Below are positions 15,435-59,701 of a stretch of 64,000 nucleotides of DNA, piece by piece. Within the stretch, counting starts at the first letter, position 1. Every line of letters begins with the position of its first letter. The notes below the pieces were generated by a model. The model was not told the DNA's origin and did not search any database. It saw nothing but the letters and a program-made list of their open reading frames with translations. The position numbers were made by a program, and so were the translations under genes. Source of the DNA: Ramlibacter sp. (lineage in GTDB: Bacteria > Pseudomonadota > Gammaproteobacteria > Burkholderiales > Burkholderiaceae_C). The stretch lies in NCBI GenBank assembly GCA_030695945.1, contig JAUYOG010000064.1:1-64000 (forward strand). The letters are read 5' to 3'.

Positions 15435-15443
15435 GTCAGTCTC

Positions 15444-15511
15444 CGCCGAGCCGCCTCAAGGAGGCTGAGGCCCCCTCGGGGGGCAGCGATCGAAAGTGAG
15501 CGTGGGGGCAG
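15444..15511. repeat. Dispersed palindromic repeat between tctB and tctA
   Basis: The sequence runs from GCCGAGCCGCCTCAAGG through the core GGCCCCCTCGGGGGGCAGCG to AGCGTGGGGGC. It aligns end to end with the copy inside ybgC (about 59525-59608) and, in inverse orientation, with the copy at 33.85 kb. The core can form a strong hairpin in the tctB-tctA transcript. Confidence 0.7.
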
Positions 15512-58023: not shown

Positions 58024-59216
58024 GCCGCACGATGCGCATCGCCAGCCTGATCGACAGGATCGAGCCCTTCTACGTGATGGAAGTGGCGAAGGCGGCATCG
58101 AAACTCGCACGCGAGGTGGCCCACACCGACCGGCCGATGATCTTCCTGAACATCGGCGAGCCGGATTTCACGGCGCCGCCGCTGGTGCAGGAAGCCGCGG
58201 CCCGCGCCATCCGCGACGGCAAGACCCAGTACACGCAGGCCACCGGGCTGGAGCCGCTGCGCGAGCGCATCAGCCACTGGTACATGCAGCGCTTCGGCGT
58301 GAACGTTCCGCCCGGCCGGATCGTCATCACGGCCGGCGCTTCGGCGGCCCTGCAGCTGGCCTGCCTGACGCTGATCGAGGCGGGCGAGCAGATCCTGATG
58401 CCCGACCCGAGCTATCCCTGCAACTGCCACTTCGTCACGGTGGCGCACGGCGAACCGGTGCGCCTGCCCGCCACGGCGACCGAGCGCTTCCAGCTCACGG
58501 CAGGCAAGATCGAGGAGCACTGGGGGCCGAAGTCGCGCGGCGTCCTCCTGGCGTCGCCTTCCAACCCCACGGGCACGTCGATCCACCCCGACGAGCTGCG
58601 CCGCATCCACGACTTCGTGGGCGGCAAGGGCGGCATCACCCTGCTCGACGAAATCTACCTGGGCCTGAGTTACGACGAGACGTTCGGGCACACGGGCCTG
58701 GCAATCGACGACCAGGTGATCAGCATCAACAGCTTTTCCAAGTACTTCAACATGACGGGGTGGCGCCTGGGCTGGATCGTCGCGCCGGAACCGGTCGTGC
58801 ATGCCGTCGAAAAGCTGGCGCAGAACCTCTTCATCTGCCCGAGCGCGGTCGCGCAGCACGCGGCCCTCGCCTGCTTCGAGCCGGAAAGCCTGGCCGAATA
58901 CGAGCGCCGCCGCGCGGAATTCAAGGCGCGCCGCGACTGGTTCATCCCGCAGCTCGAATCCATCGGGCTGCCGGTGCCGGTGGTGCCGGACGGCGCCTTC
59001 TACGCCTGGGCGGACTGCTCCGACGCCTGCCGCCGGCTGGGCGTGAAGGACAGCTGGGAATTCACTTTCGAGATCATGAAGCGCGCCCATGTGGCCGTGA
59101 CGCCGGGCCGCGACTTCGGCGTCGCGCAGACGCACAACTTCATCCGCTTTTCGACGGCCAGCTCCATGGAACACCTGCAGGAGGCCGTGGCGCGGCTGCG
59201 GGCAGTCCTCGCATGA
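58020..59216 (+). CDS. Class I PLP-dependent aminotransferase
   Basis: A 398-residue fold-type I enzyme with NIGEPDF, SNPTG ([10 protein letters not shown]), [11 protein letters not shown] and Schiff-base Lys in [16 protein letters not shown]. It is related to the aspartate/alanine aminotransferase family; the donor and acceptor are not clear. It starts in the nusB stop (ATGA) and ends in the ybgC start (ATGA), so it is part of the same translation-coupled run. Confidence 0.92.
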
Positions 59217-59701
59217 AGGTTTTCTCCTGGCCCGTCCGCGTCTACTGGGAGGACACCGATGCCGGCGGCATCGTCTTCTACGCCAACTACCTGAAGTTCT
59301 TCGAACGGGCCCGCACCGAGTGGCTGCGCTCGCTCGGCATCGAGCAAAGCCGCCTGCGCGAGACCACTGGCGGCATCTTCGTCGTGGGCCAAACCTCGGT
59401 GCGCTTTCACCGCGCGGCCCGGCTGGACGATGAACTTCTTGTTACGGCCGCCGCCCAGGAAACGGGCCGCGCGTCTCTCATAATTGCCCAGCAGGCTTTT
59501 TTGAAGAGCAGCCAGGAGCCGTTGAGCGCCGCCGGGCCGCCCCAAGGCGCGAAGGCCCCCTCGGGGGGCAGCGCAGCGGCCTTGGCCGCAAGCGTGGGGG
59601 CCACACTCTGCGAAGGAACGATCCGCATCGGCTGGGTCGAGGCTGCTACCCTGAAGCCTGCGAGAATCCCGCCCATCATCCTGGAAGCCCTCAAACAATG
59701 A
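59213..59701 (+). CDS. ybgC: Acyl-CoA thioesterase YbgC (Tol-Pal associated) with an in-frame repeat insertion
   Basis: A hotdog thioesterase with catalytic-Asp motif YWEDTDAGGIVFYANYLKFF (11-30) and FVVGQTSVRFHRAARLDD. At 162 residues it is longer than the usual ~135. The extra 28 residues (codons at 59525-59608, Ala/Gly/Pro-rich) sit exactly between conserved QAFLKSSQEPL and CEGTIRIGWVEA and are encoded by a dispersed palindromic repeat. Removing them gives a normal-length protein. The gene is upstream of tolQRA, as in most proteobacteria, with 4-bp overlaps at both ends. Whether the insertion is tolerated in a surface loop is unknown. Confidence 0.93.
   Translation: MKVFSWPVRVYWEDTDAGGIVFYANYLKFFERARTEWLRSLGIEQSRLRETTGGIFVVGQTSVRFHRAARLDDELLVTAAAQETGRASLIIAQQAFLKSSQEPLSAAGPPQGAKAPSGGSAAALAASVGATLCEGTIRIGWVEAATLKPARIPPIILEALKQ
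59525..59608 (+). repeat. Palindromic repeat inserted in frame inside ybgC
   Basis: The segment contains GAAGGCCCCCTCGGGGGGCAGCG and ends AGCGTGGGGGCCACACTC; it aligns with the intergenic copy at 15444-15511 from GCCGCCG to GTGGGGGC. Its length, 84 bases, is a multiple of three and it has no stop in the frame used. Confidence 0.75.

Follow-up and report, generated by a model that had tools for sequence, protein, structure and literature searches.

A block of 28 additional residues in the YbgC protein of a Ramlibacter sp. is very probably a copy of a palindromic element, itself probably the Beta-proteobacterial repeat element (BRE), that lies in a loop of the protein, is translated as a disordered linker and has been kept by a purifying filter. 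According to this explanation, a palindromic element that is or once was mobile would have inserted into the variable loop of the C-terminal beta-hairpin of YbgC, where it would be translated as approximately 28 residues rich in Pro, Gly, Ala and Ser that remain disordered outside the hotdog fold. Insertion would occur in many places and frames and would be followed by the purifying filter, the intragenic survivors being copies that keep the frame, contain no stop, occupy a loop-tolerant position and are read in one of two frames encoding bland linkers. The window, i.e. the whole stretch of 64,000 nucleotides that was analysed (contig JAUYOG010000064.1, here C44), belongs to a 3.7 Mb genome, termed G000, whose assembly is 79% complete. 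Its relevant features are as follows.

59213..59698, plus strand: ybgC, tol-pal acyl-CoA thioesterase, 4HBT/hotdog, 162 aa, carrying the in-frame element (4HBT_2 match 10-160; top fold matches 5v10 and 1s5u)
59522..59605, plus strand: palindromic element (BRE-like), TGAGC subfamily, +PSGG frame (identical genomic copy; profile match; core-pattern count)
59523..59530, plus strand: left hairpin 5' arm TGAGCGCC, of which 6/8 positions pair with the 3' arm (arm-pair comparison)
59531..59545, plus strand: 15-nt loop region GCCGGGCCGCCCCAA with an apical NNN-CCGC-NNN that covaries from copy to copy (copy comparison)
59546..59553, plus strand: left hairpin 3' arm GGCGCGAA (arm-pair comparison)
59555..59569, plus strand: central hairpin GCCCCCTCGGGGGGC (core pattern, copy comparison)
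59576..59589, plus strand: third hairpin, variable, GCGGCCTTGGCCGC (sequence)
59590..59603, plus strand: right end, conserved, AAGCGTGGGGGCCA (profile search, copy list)
15440..15510, plus strand: second window copy, with a CTCC-type stem, intergenic and flanked by two minus-strand genes (profile match, 41.7 bits)

Counted from the YWED motif, YbgC is 152 residues long in the window, 153 in the genome G042 and 124 in the sister genome G003. The excess of 28 residues over G003 (84 nt) agrees with the initial annotation, which had found the protein 28 residues too long. The block does interrupt conserved sequence, as proposed there, sitting between AQQA and C(E/D)GTIRIGW in the YbgC alignment, and the claim that the gene is unbroken holds as well, the frame being open up to the stop codon. 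The ORFs that come after ybgC are, judging from their sequences, presumably tolQ-, tolR- and tolA-like, in line with the suggested position upstream of tolQRA. The insert had been placed at 59525-59608; its length of 84 bp stands whereas its ends were off by approximately 3 nt, the identity to another copy covering 59522-59605. Over this segment 84/84 bases are identical to G000:C38:47916-47999, and a copy on contig C19 of the same genome is 99% identical over 87 bp to the one in ybgC. The nhmmer profile match extends from 59523 to 59603 (65.1 bits), the exact left end of the element in ybgC being uncertain because the loop is naturally variable. The similar repeat noticed at 15.45 kb is real (15440-15510), though a more distant member of the family. 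These comparisons support the view that a palindromic repeat of dispersed type now serves as in-frame coding sequence in an unbroken ybgC.

With up to 2 mismatches allowed, a 19-base core was counted 57 times in the G000 genome and its reversed control 0 times. By iterated nhmmer, 62 copies were detected in G000, 102 in G042 and 39 in G003 (203 in sum), these counts covering the stretches retrieved around copies; with at least 62 copies in G000, the possibility raised against the annotation, that no similar repeat exists elsewhere in the genome, fails. The element has a median length of 80 bp (5-95% range 65-83) and a mean G+C of 76%. Neighbouring copies in G042 and G003 lie 78-87 bp apart and form tandem arrays, which at four G042 loci (L276, L246, L285 and L269) consist of 3-4 copies each. 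Copies were also detected in Polaromonas, Variovorax and Hydrogenophaga loci and on plasmids of Variovorax, Azoarcus and Rhodoferax, and the core pattern is present in 18/200 genomes of the order; the nearest named relatives of the host are Comamonadaceae. A search of G000 with PF01797 alone yielded no transposase of the element. The sole Y1_Tnp domain match of this genome (L094, G000:C52:56443-56772) lies in a 3.3-kb locus without any element copy, and a copy next to this transposase was therefore rejected. Membership in an Rfam family at gathering level was likewise rejected: none reached the gathering score in the scanned stretches, each scan giving one sub-threshold match.

The left hairpin consists of an 8-bp stem around GCCGGGCCGCCCCAA. 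Outside the TGAGC subfamily its arms vary between copies and yet pair with their own partner: among distinct arm pairs, 222/264 positions pair in G000, 412/544 in G042 and 177/216 in G003, as compared to 121 (sd 8), 235 (sd 10) and 96 (sd 7) with arms re-dealt, and the observed pairing was reached by 0/5000 shuffles in each genome, although kinship among copies inflates pairing and covariation counts. In G000 the stem ends after position 8, with 25-32 of 33 paired at positions 1-8 and 15 at position 9. In the TGAGC subfamily, to which the ybgC copy of the window belongs, 6/8 stem positions pair, positions 6 and 7 do so in 0/19 G000 copies, and the remaining positions covary (108 vs 97, sd 1.8). 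The apical part of the loop covaries as well (GGG/CCC, GAG/CTC, GAA/TTC). Stem mismatches of the A.C and G.T types are even in number (46 and 42, neither being the commonest type) and hence give no sign of a single folded RNA strand; the pattern would be compatible with a DNA hairpin or with correction at the DNA level, e.g. by template switching. When both strands of the two window copies were folded as RNA, the result was ordinary as compared to shuffles (z -0.69 to -1.50), which speaks against one strong RNA structure. We also considered whether the variable stem arm could be copied host flank and rejected this, since the empty ksgA and yaeQ alleles that were read lack the arm, which is thus part of the element; six bases at the pheS junction resemble the host, a likeness taken as chance. 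A long target-site duplication was rejected: the longest common stretch reached at least 6 in 16/151 copies, against a mean of 9.5 and a maximum of 18 in shuffles, and its mean length of 4.31 vs 3.98 (sd 0.07) is a slight excess. In four genomes, copies are found directly before the same start codon, that of a gene we take to be yaeQ (L204, L205, L207 and L208); there G009 and G015 have a common, nearly self-paired stem, the stem of G000 is different and the G022 copy is degenerate.

The distribution of the ybgC insertion was surveyed in 59 genomes of the genus including G000. The loop was read in 30 of these and in G054 (31 in all), absence elsewhere being judged from alignments that break off ahead of the loop and continue beyond it; for G033 this survey yielded no close match to the N-terminal part. 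Whole-protein matches including the loop were obtained with G000, G042, G044 and G037, and a search of 60 genomes with the loop fragment returned the same four. The element itself was found in ybgC of G000 and G042 only. The blocks of 28-30 residues that G044 (L011) and G037 (L012) carry in the same loop were rejected as recognizable copies, having no significant similarity to the element (profile E 0.5 and 1.2). Long YbgC loops occur likewise in Hydrogenophaga and Serpentinimonas loci. The initial annotation had left it open whether the insertion is recent or a stable lineage trait; what is seen is a patchy distribution in which G000 and G042 are filled and the sister G003 has the canonical short loop. 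Beyond the genus, 79/80 named loci gave a ybgC ORF, and nhmmer placed the element inside 2 of them, both from Polaromonas (L124, from Polaromonas sp. CF318, and L137); in L137 (Polaromonas sp. P2-4) the ybgC frame is broken ahead of the element, which indicates that intact coding is not universal. The presence of the same residues in unrelated genera had been named as evidence against an insertion: the two Polaromonas genes are indeed filled in the same loop, but their copies differ from that of the window in stem and spacer. We therefore read the ybgC loop as a site repeatedly used or repeatedly emptied by a mobile element and not as a fixed domain. Further copies lie at or beside the ybgC start (L134, L178, L170, L138, L130 and, weakly, L127, E 8.5e-4).

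Three other genes could be compared in the same manner. A gcvT match was found in 57/59 genomes and the site was read in 17, being filled in G000, G042, G019 and G022, occupied by a short unrelated insert in G031 and empty in 12; in the other 40 genomes the alignments are broken at the site. The empty site of G003 reads RGED directly followed by IFVIV. For ksgA, G042 is filled and 12 are empty among the 13 genomes matched, and for pheS (13 matched genomes) G042 is filled, 11 are empty and G003 is cut by a contig end at the site. A yaeQ-region tree (1109 columns) makes G000 and G003 sisters (100/100) and puts G042 into another clade (98/98). The sites shared in ybgC and gcvT could thus reflect either repeated hits, precise loss or passage by short recombination. 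Inheritance of a single ancient insertion at ybgC (and at gcvT), followed by many precise losses, is a genuine competitor of repeated insertion, although we consider it somewhat improbable. It accounts for the unusual stem GCTTC/GAAGC and right part common to the gcvT copies of G000, G042 and G019, a combination found at no other locus in the G000 and G042 copy lists and favouring a common origin of these three copies, and for the right junction of ybgC, which is equal in the genus of the window and in Polaromonas (SVGA before and (T)LLCEG after it). Against it, G003 is empty at both genes with no visible scar, as are the other empty sites read, and G022 has the usual stem of the family at the same gcvT site. 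Furthermore, since the copy in ybgC of G000 is identical to a sibling in its own genome, a recent insertion or conversion is favoured there. The transfer of short allele segments is a third possibility.

YbgC of the window belongs to the 4HBT thioesterases by family profile and hotdog fold, matching the YbgC structures 5v10 and 1s5u. In an AlphaFold2 model built from 49 sequences (mean pLDDT 80.3), residues 102-124 have pLDDT below 50 and are flanked by strands formed by residues 88-98 and 128-143. The model that had been suggested as a check thus places the block in a disordered loop of a beta-hairpin, where it is predicted to lie at the surface, and the enzyme presumably still works despite the loop.

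The ybgC insertion is one of many. At least 22/203 copies are read in frame inside genes of G000, G042 and G003, which corresponds to 19 sites as three sites occur in two genomes each. Coding calls were based on G+C phase, open frames and Pfam, and the counts are lower bounds, since the coding filter overlooked the ligase of G003 as well as ybgC in both G000 and G042. G000 has 6 in-frame copies, in ybgC, an AidB-like acyl-CoA dehydrogenase, an ATP-dependent DNA ligase, an alpha/beta hydrolase, gcvT and an amidohydrolase-like protein that gave no Pfam match. The 14 copies of G042 are found in xdhA-like, thrC, a MeaB/methylmalonyl-CoA mutase fusion, gcvT, two RND pumps, ksgA, a T2SS ATPase, fdhD, pheS, recQ, an alpha/beta hydrolase, aceK and ybgC, and the 2 of G003 in glnE (a partial copy at a domain edge) and in the DNA ligase, at the same site as in G000. 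Where Pfam gives no support, the names of these genes are putative and based on sequence motifs. A single Pfam match spans the element in 12/20 scanned proteins, and in 5/20 the same family appears in two stretches, the listed stretch ending or starting at the element; as for the remaining three, the element lies between two ligase domains (L040) or at a domain edge (L306), and L077 has no Pfam match. We infer that the other insertions likewise lie in loops. In the T2SS ATPase of G042 (L290) the copy sits between the CVHC and CSEC cysteine clusters, and in RecQ (L274) just ahead of the CGNCDNC motif.

Frames are named here by the residues read through the central hairpin. The 19 in-frame ORFs of the coding-filter list comprise 11 in +PSGG, 7 in -PPEG and 1 in +PLGG, with 0 in the other three frames, and three further in-frame copies, not on that list, all use +PSGG. 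Of 201 copies examined, 149-171 are open in each of five frames and 101 in +PPRG. The binomial probability of at least 18/19 ORFs falling in the two frames is 2.8e-7, and that of 17/18, multiplied by the 15 choices of two frames, is 1.1e-5, both values being approximate because copies are related. The preferred frames are the poorest of the six in Arg and Cys: the window copy reads LSAAGPPQGAKAPSGGSAAALAASVGA and VAPTLAAKAAALPPEGAFAPWGGPAAL in the +PSGG and -PPEG frames, with one Arg/Lys each and no Cys, and has 4-9 Arg/Lys in its other four frames. We read this bias as the survival of bland linkers, produced by a filter, as we infer, and not by an insertion preference.

Co-option of the in-frame copies for a function of the host protein, as a regulatory or binding loop, appears improbable. 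The gcvT copies of G000 and G042 do look well conserved, and different clades have an element at one and the same position in both ybgC and gcvT; however, presence differs between sister genomes, the YbgC loop is predicted to be disordered and unrelated enzymes carry similar peptides. It is still less probable that the mRNA loses the element or the ribosome bypasses it, leaving a normal protein, given that the frame, stop and codon filters are those expected under translation and that no Rfam family was found at gathering score in the scanned stretches; the mRNA is probably translated through the element and YbgC active. Finally, an ordinary variable linker grown by slippage and repeat-like in composition only, which could appeal to the wide variation of loop length in Comamonadaceae without the element and to the G044 and G037 blocks that fail the element profile, for which this origin may hold, is scarcely credible for the window in view of the full identity to a distant genomic copy, the profile score and the empty reversed control.

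Copies between genes lead to a broader but doubtful proposal, which we put forward tentatively: the BRE may be a translation-compatible mobile hairpin, able to enter without abolishing translation by means of linker frames, a relay ORF and a Shine-Dalgarno-like stem. One orientation (+PSGG) would provide a bland linker; the other (-PPEG) would provide either a linker or, at intergenic sites, a short relay ORF that opens with its own start close to one end and terminates next to the start of the following gene. The subset with a CTCC arm would carry a Shine-Dalgarno-like GGAG in its stem, and such a hairpin could enter genes, operons and even leaderless promoters with translation kept. CTCC is present in the 5' arm of 35/197 distinct copies, and CAT, the start codon of the other strand, lies 6-20 nt from the loop in 32/35 of them, vs 39/113 other and 10/49 TGAGC copies. 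Before a gene that we take to be of LysR type, a (C/G)ATAAT box stands shortly before the start in the 28 empty relatives read; in G000 (L084) and G020 (L413) the element lies between the box (CATAAT) and the start and supplies GGAG. In 33/181 copies the -PPEG frame has an ATG at one end and meets a stop close to the opposite end, vs 21 and 11 for the two other reverse frames, a count only moderately above these and to be regarded as a lead. The second window copy, 15440-15510, is among the 33 and illustrates the relay reading: on the minus strand the upstream ORF ends TTATGA, the overlapping ATG opens 26 codons through the element, and this ORF ends TGAC ahead of the next ATG, the next gene starting ATGGACATC. 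The two minus-strand genes flanking this copy are presumably tctB- and tctA-like.

The pairs of filled and empty natural alleles in sister genomes are ready material for tests of loop tolerance and would also test the selection behind the frame bias, and the copy-specific self-complementary stem offers a test of DNA-hairpin upkeep in such elements. Several known systems resemble the element in part, as far as the available portions of their descriptions go. Enterobacterial RU/ERIC elements with ORFs are small mobile repeats with read-through at gene loci, but they are other elements, of 103-168 bp, in other bacteria (Delihas 2007, PMC2759123). GTAG/CGTC REPs, associated with RAYTs, are dispersed palindromes that are sometimes intragenic; they differ in their size of 20-40 bp, their tetranucleotide tags and their RAYT link, a link not found here (Di Nocera 2013, PMC3733652). 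The coding palindromes of nematomorph mitochondria show that inverted repeats are tolerated in coding sequence, but these are perfect repeats in animal mitochondria (PMC6649704).

The element is probably the BRE, an assignment made by description and not by sequence, on the grounds of its host taxa, its length, its arrangement in tandem and its presence within genes. In the portion of the 2011 report available, which assigns no role to it, the BRE is a multi-copy element of 75-91 bp in Bordetella, with partial copies of 40-60 and tandem arrays, a G+C mean of 69% (range 63.7-78.9), a distribution in Comamonadaceae including Polaromonas with some copies in other families, and some copies wholly within coding sequences (Hot et al. 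2011, PMC3110155). Tandem arrays, occurrence in Comamonadaceae and Polaromonas as well as other families, and intragenic copies are all found here; the lengths given above compare with 75-91 under acceptance bounds that we set ourselves, and our G+C falls within the published range and above its mean. Frame analysis, protein consequences and the variable-stem structure, which that portion does not contain, are added here. In a literature search of papers outside subscription, PMC3110155 alone names the BRE among the matches listed, its one sentence is all that the literature searched offered, in the portions available, on in-frame copies, and the literal core string of the element did not occur in any of the papers searched. 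A repeat probably known since 2011 appears here in frame at no fewer than 19 gene sites of three Burkholderiales genomes, including the core genes pheS, ksgA and thrC.

In-frame palindromes are best known from Rickettsia. A review describes the Rickettsia palindromic elements (RPE) as peptide-encoding palindromes in frame in many unrelated genes and, in the portion available, Rickettsia as unusually frequent for them (PMC10969869). In-frame insertion in many unrelated genes is found here too, but the RPE is of approximately 150 bp and belongs to intracellular alphaproteobacteria, whereas the present element occurs in free-living Burkholderiales, measures approximately 65-83 bp and uses two frames. 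Compared by description, the element would work like an RPE and is not one.
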